The notes under the pieces were generated by a model, which did not search any database, had not been told where the DNA came from, and saw only the letters and a list, made by a program, of their open reading frames with translations. Shown here piece after piece: positions 20,693 to 26,346 of a DNA stretch of 39,041 nt; position 1 is the stretch's first letter; the number at the start of each line of letters is the position of its first letter. This DNA comes from Candidatus Woesearchaeota archaeon (GTDB taxonomy: Archaea > Nanobdellota > Nanobdellia > Woesearchaeales > GW2011-AR9): NCBI GenBank assembly GCA_018655525.1, contig JABIJM010000017.1:1-39041 (forward strand), written 5' to 3'. The translations under genes were made by a program, and so were the position numbers.

Positions 20693-22498
20693 TTAATATT
20701 TATTTTTTAAATTAAGCTTGGTATATACTCCAAGACTTCTAATTTCATCAAGTAAGAGTTTGAATGCGTAACTCATTTCAACATTTGCCATATCCGAATT
20801 ATCTCCGAATAAAGGCGAAACTGATCTTCCTGCTTTCCGTGCATCATAGAATCCCATTAAACCTGATTGTTCACAAACAGGAATAACTGCTCTATCAGCA
20901 TTAAATCTTTCTTTTAACAGCAAAGATGCCCCATGGGCAATGAATGTATCTTTCTCCATCTCTCCCAATCTTAAACCACCTTCTTTAGCTTTACCTTCAG
21001 TTGGTTGTCTTGTTAGAAGTTGGATTGGACCTCGCGCACGTGATTGCATTTTATTTGCAACCATATGACGTAATCGTAAATAATACATGTTTCCAACGTA
21101 AATACGTGCAAGCATTTGTTTACCGGTTCTTCCATCAACAAATACTTCTTTCCCGTCTTCATTAAAACCTAATTGTGTTAATTCTTGACGTAAATCTTCT
21201 TCAGCTTCTGATTTGAATAATGTTCCGTCAACAAATCTTCCACCTAAAGCTCCAACTTTACCACCAACTAACTCAATTAAATGAGATATGGTCATACGTG
21301 AAGATACTCCATGCGGTGTGAAAATTAAATCTGGAACAACACCAGAGATTGAAAAAGGAACATCTGATTGTGGAACTAATATTCCTGTAACTCCTTTCTG
21401 TCCGTGACGTGATGTAAATTTATCACCAATTTCTGGGATTCTTTCTTGACGTAAACGAACTTGTACAAGTTTATTACCTTCTTCATTTTCAGTGATTGCA
21501 ACAAAATCTGCAACACCTTTTTCTCCATGTTTTAATGAAACTGAACTTTCTCGTCTAATAGCAGCAGATAAATTGTATTCATCTAAACTACTTAAGAAAC
21601 GCGGAGGAGATGTTCGTCCAATCACAACATTTCCTTCTTGAACTGTTGCTTCTGGATAAATGATTCCATCTCCTTCTAAGAATGCATAATCTGCTTCTGT
21701 CCTATATCCTTTTACTTCTTTATCTGGAACGGAAACTTCATCAATAAGTCCACCTGAATACCGTAATTCTTCAGCACTCACTGGTCTAAAATATGTACTT
21801 CTTGCTAATCCACGTTGAACGGAACCTTTGTTTAAGATTACACCGTCCTCCATATTATAACCATCATAACACATAATTGCAACAATCATGTTTTGTCCAG
21901 AAGGATGTTCATGATAATCTGTTACATCGTGAATTGCGGTTTTTACAAGCGGGAAGTGTGGATAATGTAAGATGTTTGCATCCATGTCCATACGTAAATG
22001 ATAATTTGCTGCATAGAATCCTAAAGATTGTTTCTGGTTTTTACTTCCAATAATTAAACGTGAGGAAGGCGTATAGTTTCCGAATGGAACTAATGCTGCT
22101 GTGATTCCACTAATTGCAAAAGATTCAATTTCTAAATGCGTATGTTCTTCTGTTAAATCTTCTACATTATATGCAACAAGTGCATTTTCTTCTTCACCAG
22201 CATCTATGTATTCAACAATTCCTTGTCGTACAAGATCTGCCCATGTAATTTCATTTGAGTCTAATTGTTGTAAATGTTTTTCTGTTAAAAGAGATTTTCC
22301 TTCTTTTGAAACAATTAAAGGTCGTCTTGCACGTCCAGCATCACTCCAAATGAAAACATCATTTGCAGTTTCGTTGAAATAAACATTAACTTCTCCTGAA
22401 AGAGAACCTTTTCTTCGTAAATCACGAATGTCTTGTGTAAATGTTGAGGCATTATCAACTTTTCCAACATATTGTGAATTAATAAAAACGTCAGCCAT
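20693..22498 (-). CDS. rpoB1: DNA-directed RNA polymerase subunit B' (C-terminal half)
   Basis: This 601-residue protein is the C-terminal half of the second-largest subunit. The B subunit is split in methanogens, haloarchaea and many DPANN. It contains GQNMIVAIMCYDGYNMEDG, RQERIPEIGDKFTSRHGQKG, PDLIFTPHGVSSRMTI and RLGEMEKDTFIAHGA, all near the active centre. The C-terminal zinc ribbon normally formed by two CxxC pairs is degenerate: only C542 in VCEQSG remains, and the second pair is absent before MSYAFKLLLDE. Its ribosome-binding site AGGAGG is inside the last codons of rpoB2, and the ATG is one base after that stop. Confidence 0.98.
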   Translation of the reverse strand: MADVFINSQYVGKVDNASTFTQDIRDLRRKGSLSGEVNVYFNETANDVFIWSDAGRARRPLIVSKEGKSLLTEKHLQQLDSNEITWADLVRQGIVEYIDAGEEENALVAYNVEDLTEEHTHLEIESFAISGITAALVPFGNYTPSSRLIIGSKNQKQSLGFYAANYHLRMDMDANILHYPHFPLVKTAIHDVTDYHEHPSGQNMIVAIMCYDGYNMEDGVILNKGSVQRGLARSTYFRPVSAEELRYSGGLIDEVSVPDKEVKGYRTEADYAFLEGDGIIYPEATVQEGNVVIGRTSPPRFLSSLDEYNLSAAIRRESSVSLKHGEKGVADFVAITENEEGNKLVQVRLRQERIPEIGDKFTSRHGQKGVTGILVPQSDVPFSISGVVPDLIFTPHGVSSRMTISHLIELVGGKVGALGGRFVDGTLFKSEAEEDLRQELTQLGFNEDGKEVFVDGRTGKQMLARIYVGNMYYLRLRHMVANKMQSRARGPIQLLTRQPTEGKAKEGGLRLGEMEKDTFIAHGASLLLKERFNADRAVIPVCEQSGLMGFYDARKAGRSVSPLFGDNSDMANVEMSYAFKLLLDEIRSLGVYTKLNLKNKY

Positions 22499-22499
22499 T

Positions 22500-23975
22500 T
22501 TATTGAGCCTCCTGTAATCCTAATGATTTGATTGCATCAAGGACTTCTTTTTCATCTGTATTTTGCGATAAAGAACATAACATTGCTAAATTTTTACGTA
22601 GCCCAATGTTTGTACCTTCTGGTGTTTCAATAGGACATAATCTTCCAATATGTGTACAATGTAAAGCACGTGCATCAAAGTTCTCTTGAGAACTTGATAA
22701 AGGGCTTACAACTCTTTGTAAATGGGAAACCATATCTAAAAAGTTAATTCTACTAATTCTCTGCGAAACTCCCTGACGACCACCAACCCATTCTCCGGTT
22801 GCCATAGCTGAATAAAGTCTAGAAGTTAATAGTTTATCACGAATTATAACTCTCACTGATGGAAGTTTTCCACGTTTAATGATTCTTTGGAAATTATATA
22901 AAATATCTCCAACTAATACTTTAAAATTCGCTCGGAATAAATCAAGTAATAAATCTCCACTCATCCGTAATCTTTTGTTCATGTAATGGTCTTTATCATC
23001 TGAATTTTGTTGACCATTTGAAACGTCAATAAATTTTTTCAACATTTTACAAATGTTACGAGCTTTTGCTTCACGCATTTTGTCGCCAGCACCCATATTT
23101 GGAAGTAAAAATTTATCAAGAATATCTTTTGTACGTTCCATACGGATTTCTTTTGCTTGTGCAATTCCAATTCTTTTTGCAATATAATCAATTGCATCAT
23201 CTTGTGTTTTTACATCTACGAATTCAAATAAGTTTAAAATAACTTCATCATAAGTTTTTTCTGTTGAAATTGCTTTCATAATTTCTTCGTCTTTAAGTAA
23301 GCCAATTGCTTTTAAAACTACGACAATAGGCATCTGTTTCACACGTGTGAAAGACATATAGAAAATTCCATCTTTCTTCCTTTCAAAAGTATGTGGGATT
23401 TTGTAAGAACCTGCTGCTGAAAAGAAACGTCCACTAAAGTCACCAGTTTTTGTTTTCTCAACAACAAAGTTATTTCCTGCAAGATCTTCTACATTTACAA
23501 TAACTCTTTCAGTTCCATTGACTATAAAATATCCACCTGGGTCAGTTGGATCTTCTCCACGTTTGATTAATTCTTCACGTGATAAACTATCAAGATTACA
23601 ATATTTTGATTTTAACATGATTGGTAATTTTCCAACCTCAGCAACAAAATTTTCTCGTTGCACATCGTTAATATACGTACTAACTTCTAAGAAGATAGGT
23701 GCGGTATAAGAAATTTTTCGTAAACGTGATTCCATGGGATAAATTGCTCGTTTAGAACCATCAGCTTCTGTGATTTCTGGTTTCCCTACGGTAATTCGTC
23801 CAAATCTAATTTTAAATCTCTCAATATTATGAGGGATAATTGTTGGTTCTGCTTCTTTATTTTCTTCAATGACAATTTGAAGCCCTTTATCAAGAAGTGT
23901 ATTAAATGATTGAATACTACTATCTACAAACCTTTTTTCTTCAAAGTACTTTTTTACTAATATTGAACGATCCAT
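22500..23975 (-). CDS. rpoB2: DNA-directed RNA polymerase subunit B'' (N-terminal half)
   Basis: This 491-residue protein is the N-terminal half of the second-largest subunit. It has SYTAPIFLEVSTYIND, GGYFIVNGTERVIVN, DKDHYMNKRLRMSGDLLLDLF and, at the end, ARALHCTHIGRLCPIETPEGTNIGL, the fork region of the active-site cleft. The frame is open eight codons further upstream to 23999, but that would overlap rpoH; GAGGT lies about 13 nt before the ATG at 23975, giving the usual N-terminus MDRSILVKKYF. There is a 13-nt gap after rpoH and one base before rpoB1. Confidence 0.97.
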   Translation of the reverse strand: MDRSILVKKYFEEKRFVDSSIQSFNTLLDKGLQIVIEENKEAEPTIIPHNIERFKIRFGRITVGKPEITEADGSKRAIYPMESRLRKISYTAPIFLEVSTYINDVQRENFVAEVGKLPIMLKSKYCNLDSLSREELIKRGEDPTDPGGYFIVNGTERVIVNVEDLAGNNFVVEKTKTGDFSGRFFSAAGSYKIPHTFERKKDGIFYMSFTRVKQMPIVVVLKAIGLLKDEEIMKAISTEKTYDEVILNLFEFVDVKTQDDAIDYIAKRIGIAQAKEIRMERTKDILDKFLLPNMGAGDKMREAKARNICKMLKKFIDVSNGQQNSDDKDHYMNKRLRMSGDLLLDLFRANFKVLVGDILYNFQRIIKRGKLPSVRVIIRDKLLTSRLYSAMATGEWVGGRQGVSQRISRINFLDMVSHLQRVVSPLSSSQENFDARALHCTHIGRLCPIETPEGTNIGLRKNLAMLCSLSQNTDEKEVLDAIKSLGLQEAQ

Positions 23976-23988
23976 TATTATTTTACCT

Positions 23989-24225
23989 CTACCCTTCAAC
24001 TACCAACCTATAATATTCTGTTGTTCCAGCAGTTCTGCTAGTTCTTTCTATTTTGATGACATCACCGGCTTTTATACCTAAACTTGATATTGCGGGGTCA
24101 GTTATAAGAATTTTTGGAAGATGTTTTGACTCAATTGTATGAGTTGCAAATAGTTTTTCTTTATCAGAATCACTTACTTTTGAATGTTTTGGGACGAATT
24201 GATGTTGTAGGACGTTTAGGGTCAT
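23989..24225 (-). CDS. rpoH: DNA-directed RNA polymerase subunit H
   Basis: This 78-residue protein matches the archaeal H subunit, equivalent to the C-terminal domain of eukaryotic Rpb5, which touches DNA entering the enzyme. Typical phrases are LQHQFVPKHSKVS near the start, LPKILITDPAISSLGIKAGDVIKIERTS and EYYRLVVEG at the end. A longer frame reaches 24291, but GGAGG 10-15 nt before the ATG at 24225 and the family length support the shorter form. It is the first gene of the RNA polymerase operon. A TTTATGGAGG stretch near 24307-24316 could be the promoter; tRNA-Lys lies upstream on the same strand. Confidence 0.95.
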   Translation of the reverse strand: MTLNVLQHQFVPKHSKVSDSDKEKLFATHTIESKHLPKILITDPAISSLGIKAGDVIKIERTSRTAGTTEYYRLVVEG

Positions 24226-24338
24226 GTTGTGTGTTCCTCCATGGAATGTTTGTTGTTGATTGTGAACGGGCCGGAAGATGACGAAACTCATCGTTTCGGA
24301 CCTTCCTATCCTCCATAAACAATTTCATTGATTATGAG

Positions 24339-24429
24339 CGGGCCGGAAGGGATTTGAACCCTCGACCGCCTGATTGCTTTGACTTTATGCTTAAAAGTCA
24401 GGCGCTCTACCAAGCTAAGCTACCGGCCC
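24339..24429 (-). tRNA. tRNA-Lys (UUU) with 17-nt intron
   Basis: It folds with a 7-bp acceptor stem (GGGCCGG/CCGGCCC), a D arm (GCTT..GAGC), an anticodon stem CCTGA/TCAGG and a T arm containing TTCAAAT. The anticodon TTT lies at 24393-24395. A 17-nt insertion at about 24375-24391 sits after position 37, the canonical place of archaeal introns cut by the bulge-helix-bulge endonuclease. The discriminator is G73, and CCA is not encoded. Confidence 0.93.
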
Positions 24430-24482
24430 ATGAGTTGGTGAACTGATTTGTTCACTTACATGGTTCGCTTTCCACAGGAAAG

Positions 24483-24586
24483 CGCCCTGGCCGGGATTCG
24501 AACCCGGGTCGTTGCCTTTATGCGGTAGCTTCTTACTAAACCACCTCGACAGGGCAACATGCTAGGCCGAGCTACACTACCAGGGC
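24483..24586 (-). tRNA. tRNA-Asp (GUC) with intron of about 29 nt
   Basis: The acceptor stem is GCCCTGG/CCAGGGC with discriminator G73. The D arm reads GTGTAGCTCGGCCTAGCAT, as in other archaeal tRNA-Asp. The anticodon GTC is at 24548-24550, inside the stem TTGCC/GGCAA. The extra bases at about 24518-24546 lie after position 37 and fit a canonical intron. CCA is not encoded. A TATA box of the CCGATACCTTTATAAA kind lies at 24681-24696, leaving a long 5' leader of about 70 nt. Confidence 0.93.
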
Positions 24587-24808
24587 ATGTTTGTAAGACA
24601 GCAAATTATCTACAGATTTATCTTTTAGAGACGTATATGTAGAAGGTTTCCTGCCATTTTGTGACTAGTGAGATGGTTTGTTTATAAAGGTATCGGTTTA
24701 ATTAAAGAGAGAAGCACAATACACATGGGATAAGAGAAAATAAGAAGCACTGGACAACTAGACAAGTCCCCGTAGAGTTTATAAATTTACAAGTTCATAG
24801 GATTATTG
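24587..24808. promoter_or_regulatory. Region between tRNA-Asp and endonuclease gene: two promoters
   Basis: No gene is seen here. At 24681-24696 the minus strand reads CCGATACCTTTATAAA, the same strong BRE/TATA element as at eL41. It points towards tRNA-Asp and tRNA-Lys with a predicted start near 24657. On the plus strand GTTTATAAAT at 24778-24787 lies 22-31 nt before the ATG of the endonuclease gene, as expected for a leaderless transcript. Confidence 0.5.
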
Positions 24809-25444
24809 ATGCAAATTAAAAAACTAAAACCAGGTTATAGGAAACTTACTTCTGCAAAAGCTAGGTTAATTGCCCACCTAATTGGAGATGGATGTGTTTT
24901 TCAGTCTAAAACTAACTATAACCTCCAATATGACATTATTGATGATGAATTAATCAAAATATTTGTAAAAGATTTAGACAAAGTTTATGGACTAAAAGCA
25001 AAAATAAAATTCAAAAAATCAGGTAAGACAGAAAAATATCTTCCTTGCGTATATGTACGATCTAAAAATGCATTTCTTGATTTGAAGAAATATTGTGATT
25101 ATTATTCATATACTTGGTCTGTACCAAGCCAAATCATGAATAGCTCAAAATCAATAAAAAAAGAATTCTTAATGGCACTTTATGATGACGAGGGAAGTGT
25201 TGTGCCTCAAGGAAAAAAAGCCGAGATTAGACTGTATTCAGTGAATCTAAAAGGGTTAAAACAAATACAGAAAATACTCCTTGAGTTCGGTATTGAAAAT
25301 AGACTTAGAGAAGGATATGGTTCACGAAGAAATGTATATGGGGTCATTGTTAAAAACCTCAAATTATTTCATAAAGAGATTGGCTTCTACTGTATAAGAA
25401 AACAACAAAAACTGGAAAAAATGAGTCCCCCCACCCGGATTTGA
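24809..25444 (+). CDS. Free-standing LAGLIDADG homing endonuclease
   Basis: This 211-residue protein carries two LAGLIDADG helices, LIAHLIGDGCV (about residues 22-32) and FLMALYDDEGSV (about 115-126). The acidic residues that bind catalytic metal are present in both (GDG and DDEG), so it looks like an intact single-chain enzyme that cuts a long asymmetric DNA site. It is not inside an intron or intein: it has its own TATA box and stands among tRNA genes that carry introns. Its last codons run antisense into the 3' end of tRNA-Tyr (overlap 25426-25444). A role as an RNA maturase or a host-adapted regulator is an alternative. Confidence 0.85.
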   Translation: MQIKKLKPGYRKLTSAKARLIAHLIGDGCVFQSKTNYNLQYDIIDDELIKIFVKDLDKVYGLKAKIKFKKSGKTEKYLPCVYVRSKNAFLDLKKYCDYYSYTWSVPSQIMNSSKSIKKEFLMALYDDEGSVVPQGKKAEIRLYSVNLKGLKQIQKILLEFGIENRLREGYGSRRNVYGVIVKNLKLFHKEIGFYCIRKQQKLEKMSPPTRI

Positions 25445-25556
25445 ACCGGGGACCTCTCGATGACTACATGACTGAAAGTGTTTCATCCAGACGTCTCTAA
25501 GACGTTTGTCACACATCTGCTACAGTCGAGCGTTCTAGCCACTGAACTATGGAGGG
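25426..25556 (-). tRNA. tRNA-Tyr (GUA) with intron of about 58 nt
   Basis: The acceptor stem CCCTCCA/TGGGGGG has the archaeal tyrosine identity pair C1-G72, and A73. The D arm (GTTCAGTGGCTAGAAC), the anticodon stem CTCGA/TCGAG and the T arm (CCCGGTTCAAATCCGGG) fold well. The anticodon GTA is at 25521-25523. About 58 extra bases (25462-25519) lie after position 37; they contain a self-complementary stretch around ACGTCT...AGACGT. The 3' end overlaps the end of the homing endonuclease gene on the other strand. The TATA box is at 25581-25588, 25-32 nt upstream. Confidence 0.92.
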
Positions 25557-26273: not shown

Positions 26274-26345
26274 GCGTGGGTAGTATAGTGGTTAGTATAC
26301 GGCGTTGCCAACGCTGTGACCCGGGTTCAAGTCCCGGCCTGCGCA
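26274..26345 (+). tRNA. tRNA-Gly (GCC), no intron
   Basis: This is a 72-nt tRNA. The acceptor stem GCGTGGG/CCTGCGC has two G-U pairs and the discriminator is A73. The D arm is GTAT..GTAT, the anticodon stem CGGCG/CGCTG encloses TTGCCAA (anticodon GCC), and the T arm is CCGGGTTCAAGTCCCGG. It has no intron and no encoded CCA. The TATA-like CTTTTATTAAG at about 26239-26249 is properly placed. One base separates it from the stop of the convergent Lrp-like gene. Confidence 0.95.
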
Positions 26346-26346
26346 C

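Follow-up and report, generated by a model that had tools for sequence, protein, structure and literature searches.

Why does an archaeal genome carry a LAGLIDADG endonuclease gene that lies in no intron and yet ends within a tRNA gene, and what might the enzyme's target be? The locus is found in a stretch of 39,041 nt (referred to below as the window, and always meaning that whole stretch) which is contig 21 of a small woesearchaeal genome of 963 kb that is 94% complete. The features involved are the following.

24338..24429, minus strand: tRNA-Lys (TTT) with a 17-nt intron, a conserved neighbour (ARAGORN)
24482..24586, minus strand: tRNA-Asp (GTC) with a 29-nt intron, a conserved neighbour (ARAGORN)
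24748..24785, plus strand: putative promoter of the endonuclease gene, 38 nt, with the box CACTGGACAAC at its start and the TATA box TTTATAAA at 24778-24785
24809..25444, plus strand: free-standing LAGLIDADG_3 homing endonuclease gene, 211 aa plus stop, with an alternative TTG start at 24806
24866..24892, plus strand: LAGLIDADG motif 1, LIAHLIGDG, with acidic residue D27, invariant in the first five relatives aligned
25169..25195, plus strand: LAGLIDADG motif 2, LMALYDDEG, with acidic residue E128, invariant in the first five relatives aligned
25425..25444, no strand assigned: overlap of the 3' ends of the endonuclease and tRNA-Tyr genes, read directly from the sequence
25425..25556, minus strand: tRNA-Tyr (GTA), the presumed homing target and host gene (ARAGORN; Rfam RF00005, 54.9 bits)
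25461..25518, minus strand: tRNA-Tyr intron in the anticodon loop, 58 nt, as placed by ARAGORN
26274..26346, plus strand: tRNA-Gly, the fourth tRNA, without intron

The ORF matches PF14528 (LAGLIDADG_3) in Pfam with an E value of 8e-15, and an AlphaFold2 model based on 28 homologues has the two-domain LAGLIDADG fold (pLDDT 95.5, pTM 0.92); in an alignment of 28 homologues E128 is nearly invariant. The best fold matches in the PDB (Foldseek) are the TliVMA intein and I-DmoI, both with E about 1e-10, and PI-PfuI is also among them; by sequence, the PDB gave a marginal match only (PI-PfuI, 1dq3, E 0.11). Two motifs with acidic active-site residues and a two-domain monomer fold are what characterises a LAGLIDADG homing endonuclease. 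The gene is a short frame of its own that is not part of an intein frame, Rfam detected no group I intron around it, and the tRNAs flanking it on either side are complete according to ARAGORN, so that the ORF lies outside any intron, be it group I or BHB. This sets it apart from I-DmoI, the closest non-intein fold, which is an archaeal endonuclease encoded inside an rRNA intron.

An earlier note on this DNA had described a free-standing gene with both catalytic motifs and its own promoter, and the analysis agrees on each point, the promoter being a predicted TATA box plus an upstream box ahead of the ATG. Also confirmed was its statement that the three neighbouring tRNA genes on the opposite strand all carry introns (17, 29 and 58 nt, found by ARAGORN with introns allowed; the three genes were also found by Rfam), as was the antisense overlap, in which the codons for SPPTRI and the TGA stop (25424-25444) run antisense to the 3' end of tRNA-Tyr. 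Two further features of the neighbourhood were observed. The gap between tRNA-Tyr and tRNA-Asp (about 24587-24690) contains a conserved leader, ATGGCAG...CTACA...TGTAG, with its own TATA box, and a matching leader occurs in the same gap of five other loci (L067, L070, L072, L074, L084); it is possibly a small RNA or a tRNA leader. The RNA polymerase B subunit is seemingly split into two adjacent ORFs of 499 and 601 aa (20693-23999, minus strand), a split that occurs in some archaea.

Among 353 genomes of the order, a profile search separated nine endonucleases, with 286-370 bits, from all others, which reached at most 98 bits. The window gene thus has eight close relatives, and all nine members of this clade, in either orientation, abut the 3' end of a tRNA-Tyr gene (in G188, where the locus lies at a contig edge, this end is all that remains of the tRNA), so that the placement is not due to chance and the gene is indeed tied to its tRNA. 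The endonuclease is antisense to tRNA-Tyr in the window genome (G000), G035, G041 and G309, and on the tRNA strand in G064, G074, G188, G255 and G346. The gene order Tyr-Asp-Lys-rpoH is kept within the family, and the locus is common to G000 and G035 (antisense) and G346 (tRNA strand), a difference in orientation that suggests either independent arrivals or an inversion.

In several hosts ARAGORN reports a GTG anticodon, and in four loci (L007, L009, L071, L096) the spliced anticodon seems to be GTG rather than GTA. A reading of these genes as tRNA-His was rejected, as an ordinary tRNA-His gene occurs elsewhere in G035 and G041, and as C1-G72 and A73 are present in the host tRNA, which lies in the Tyr-Asp-Lys setting, the apparent G36 notwithstanding; because of these ends and the gene order we regard the host tRNAs as tRNA-Tyr. 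A scan of a contig database gave no match with the single protein and 27 loci with the alignment; the relatives recovered there are named Candidatus Woesearchaeota or Nanoarchaeota.

The clade is patchily distributed (9 of 353 genomes), and no member was found in two congeners of the window genome, the assemblies of which are incomplete. At one and the same site the gene is present in G041 and absent from G023, a genome of the same genus, and it is absent from several other family members. An ORF of its own outside any intron or intein, coupled with presence or absence at the same site, is typical of a free-standing homing endonuclease. These data also bear on the idea that the protein has been domesticated, for example as a host regulator or tRNA-processing factor. 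Its good conservation in nine genomes and the occurrence of the same fold in the bacterial regulator WhiA would fit such a role; however, both acidic motifs are intact, the orientation varies, and the distribution is as patchy as just described, the congeners included, so that we consider domestication to be very improbable.

As to the target, the earlier note had suggested an intronless tRNA allele, the endonuclease thereby spreading a tRNA intron in trans (collaborative homing). For the tRNA-Tyr gene this proposal fails. The same tRNA-Tyr anticodon intron of roughly 76 nt is present at the same locus in G041, which has the endonuclease gene, and in G023, which does not, and at least seven other relatives from the same family that are devoid of the endonuclease retain a tRNA-Tyr anticodon intron. 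Relatives without the gene thus keep their introns, which, as far as relatives go, is the outcome that had been named in advance as speaking against the proposal. Intronless tRNA-Tyr genes are almost absent, being found in about one of the 353 genomes by a pattern that allows two mismatches and may miss some. G023 even has one intron more, an additional 31-nt tRNA-Tyr intron in the variable loop, where the tRNA remnant of G255 described below begins.

A different type of evidence comes from second copies of the host-gene end. In three members of the tRNA-Tyr clade, the far side of the endonuclease gene carries such a copy: 24 nt of exact tRNA-Tyr 3' end beyond the endonuclease promoter in G035, 25 nt from the variable loop onwards, beginning directly at the endonuclease stop, in G255, and 19 nt in G064. 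These copies score 33-48, compared to shuffle maxima of 25-31. No second copy was detectable in the window (shuffle fraction 0.07), G074 and G309, and the match in G346 is marginal at best. Upstream of the window gene, AAGTCCCCG was considered as a tRNA remnant, a reading that was dropped because the G035 relative has a matching sequence in its promoter region (GACAAGTC....TAGAGTTTATA).

In a target-free test, the two flanks of every locus were compared with each other, and the clear hits were host-gene ends only. They comprise the three tRNA-Tyr copies, about 187 nt of rtcB (L022), 40 to 73 nt of 5S rRNA genes (L170, L171, L016, L186), 22 nt, exact, of tRNA-Phe (L115) and 19 nt of tRNA-Ser (L113), so that a second host-gene end is found beyond the endonuclease gene in 10 of about 80 loci, three at tRNA-Tyr and seven at other genes. 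Matches in the far flanks of L114, L019 and L110 were set aside, being short or of low complexity. The bracketing repeats look similar to att sites, and integration at the 3' end of a tRNA gene is a classical pattern. The tRNA 3' end might have served as attachment site for an integrase- or virus-type element, with the endonuclease as a mere passenger between the repeats. This we regard as very improbable: the inserts are about 0.7 kb long with the endonuclease as their sole ORF, other lineages reside at the 5' ends of tRNA-Ser and rtcB, and viral contigs yielded no relative.

The tRNA-Tyr clade does not stand alone. Short LAGLIDADG_3 genes of the order are also located at tRNA-Phe, Trp, Met, Asn and Ser genes and at 5S rRNA genes, and about 12 endonucleases form a clade at the rtcB gene. 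Rfam in lax mode confirmed several of the tRNA hosts as well as six 5S genes, two of the latter scoring above the gathering threshold, and the other identities come from reading the anticodon loops by eye. At one Micrarchaeota endonuclease locus a 5S rRNA gene is found 53 nt downstream. The window genome itself has further endonucleases at tRNA-Phe, Asn and Cys, at two Met genes and at rtcB; the LAGLIDADG genes at tRNA-Cys and the two tRNA-Met genes (L221, L225, L228) were found only through the promoter box described below.

In a tree of 81 endonucleases, the host label changes 11 times, compared to 36.2 times upon shuffling, and none of 200 shuffles was as low (the rtcB clade was unlabelled in this count, and support is weak in parts of the tree, with bootstrapping not settled). 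This speaks to the possibility that endonuclease genes merely accumulate in safe spots near small RNA genes, without site-specific targeting. Intergenic sites beside tRNA genes do tolerate insertions, and many loci are devoid of a duplicated gene end; against this, the host gene is constant per clade across families, ten loci have a copied gene end, and one lineage is associated with a protein gene, rtcB. Accumulation in safe spots is thus very unlikely.

Introns are nevertheless not irrelevant to these endonucleases. For tRNA-Ser(GGA), a D-arm intron between TGCGC and A is present in 6 of 6 genomes with a tRNA-Ser endonuclease (decayed in one of them) compared to 12 of 91 without (Fisher 1.9e-5), a count that is limited to genomes fitting one pattern and ignores phylogeny, the genomes coming from many families. 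In five more genomes with a tRNA-Ser endonuclease an intron was read by eye there or close by, while G266 has the gene and no intron; when these five as well as G266 and its congener G265 (counted with G266, its tRNA not having been read) are included, the p value is 3.7e-7, again uncorrected for phylogeny. The correlation of intron and endonuclease that the earlier note had proposed to look for is therefore absent for tRNA-Tyr and present for tRNA-Ser.

At rtcB, all eight readable loci with an endonuclease gene upstream (L002, L022, L023, L032, L177, L190, L185, L204) carry an insert of about 30 nt between the codons for MPDGH and WG, mostly with stop codons. This is probably an intron that is spliced out of a protein-coding gene, the product of that gene being the tRNA ligase itself. 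rtcB is uninterrupted in most genomes of the window's family, with G033 as a possible exception, and the association is similar to that for tRNA-Ser but weaker. For tRNA-Phe, the window genome (L005) has introns and an antisense endonuclease, and the congener G001 (L215) has neither.

All three cases would agree with intron spread in trans. The tRNA-Tyr data contradict it, however, as do the intronless tRNA-Trp hosts (L112, L174), the 5S rRNA hosts, in which no intron is apparent, and the apparent tRNA-Ser exceptions G265 and G266, so that we consider it unlikely overall. A plausible reading is that introns are linked to these endonucleases, but in another way than first proposed for the tRNA-Tyr gene; that they protect the target site is attractive but unproven. 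Many additional inserts were noted in tRNA genes of this family, in the T loop, D loop, variable loop and anticodon loop (L007, L067, L070, L072, L074, L081), and many of the T-loop inserts end with GAAAG or GAAAA before the 3' exon. A literature search returned no report of noncanonical tRNA introns in DPANN archaea.

We favour a process where the window gene acts as a free-standing homing endonuclease specific for tRNA-Tyr, very probably with the tRNA-Tyr gene as its target, and homes together with a replacement gene end, the tRNA-Tyr clade being one branch of a radiation whose clades each keep to a single essential gene, RNA genes in particular. To these two statements taken together we assign a probability of about 0.7. 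The enzyme would cut the 3' half of the tRNA-Tyr gene in an allele devoid of the endonuclease. Homologous recombination with an endonuclease-bearing allele would then repair the break and thereby copy in both the endonuclease gene and a replacement 3' end of the tRNA. The tRNA would stay intact, while the native 3' end would be pushed beyond the new gene and decay there. This reading is based on the intact fold, the association with tRNA-Tyr in nine genomes, the host label following phylogeny, and the bracketing copies in ten relatives. What speaks against it is that the window shows no detectable second copy, and that the likely target sequence is seemingly restored once the tRNA has been rebuilt. 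The presumed cut site is a guess from the start points of the remnants only.

The mechanism is likely similar to that of fungal mitochondrial mORFs. There, an essential gene has a free LAGLIDADG or GIY-YIG endonuclease gene at its 3' end, which supplies a new end for it, with the native end displaced to the far side, as described with C-terminal gene duplication for atp6 of Allomyces and for atp6, atp9, cox2 and nad3 of Glomus (PMC3630166). The ten woesearchaeal loci with a second host-gene end beyond the endonuclease, to which the window does not belong, have this anatomy, and the second end would be the displaced native one. The two systems differ in that the fungal hosts are mitochondrial protein genes while the hosts here are tRNA, 5S rRNA and rtcB genes, and in that the woesearchaeal endonuclease frequently lies antisense to its host and 5' ends serve as sites too. 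Phage T4 SegB is also a free-standing homing endonuclease gene in a tRNA gene region, but it belongs to the GIY-YIG type and cuts tRNA intergenic DNA, and the excerpt of PMC2988022 that covers it mentions no duplication of gene ends. According to the same excerpt, collaborative or trans homing in phages involves a free-standing endonuclease with its target occupied by an intron; the tRNA-Ser lineage fits this pattern, whereas the tRNA-Tyr lineage lacks the required intron correlation (PMC2988022). LAGLIDADG ORFs, including PF14528, have been described from archaeal group I introns in DPANN, including Woesearchaeota, with all 39 introns in 16S or 23S rRNA genes (PMC6125680); those ORFs are intron-borne, unlike the window gene, which has no surrounding intron. 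Full-text searches of openly licensed papers yielded no earlier report of a system such as the one proposed here.

The box at the start of the endonuclease promoter is not confined to this gene. The pattern CACTSGACA-N6..24-TATA has 12 sites in the whole genome compared to none for a reversed control, and in G000 the box precedes six endonuclease genes, the radA operon, and genes for an Lhr-type helicase, Bro-N, ORF6N and Sua5. In G010, G012 and G017 it precedes radA or its partner ORF, hef, uvrA, an xer-type recombinase, Sua5 and KilA-N, and further endonuclease genes are also found behind it. This suggests that the box marks a candidate regulon for DNA repair or recombination that includes endonuclease genes; a literature search for an archaeal repair regulon gave no match.

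A fuller reading, which we advance only tentatively and hold to be rather doubtful in its entirety, is that the radiation invades essential small-RNA genes and the tRNA ligase gene with replacement ends and under a repair-type promoter box, and that target-site introns are resistance alleles. If true, this would help to explain the multiplication of tRNA introns in Woesearchaea. If our interpretation is right, free-standing endonucleases of an archaeal order would home directly into tRNA and 5S rRNA genes, and gene-end replacement would extend beyond fungal mitochondria, the sole setting found for it in the literature consulted. It would also offer a testable idea for the numerous tRNA introns encountered here, namely protection of the target site, and a candidate for a control that repair genes have in common with selfish endonucleases.
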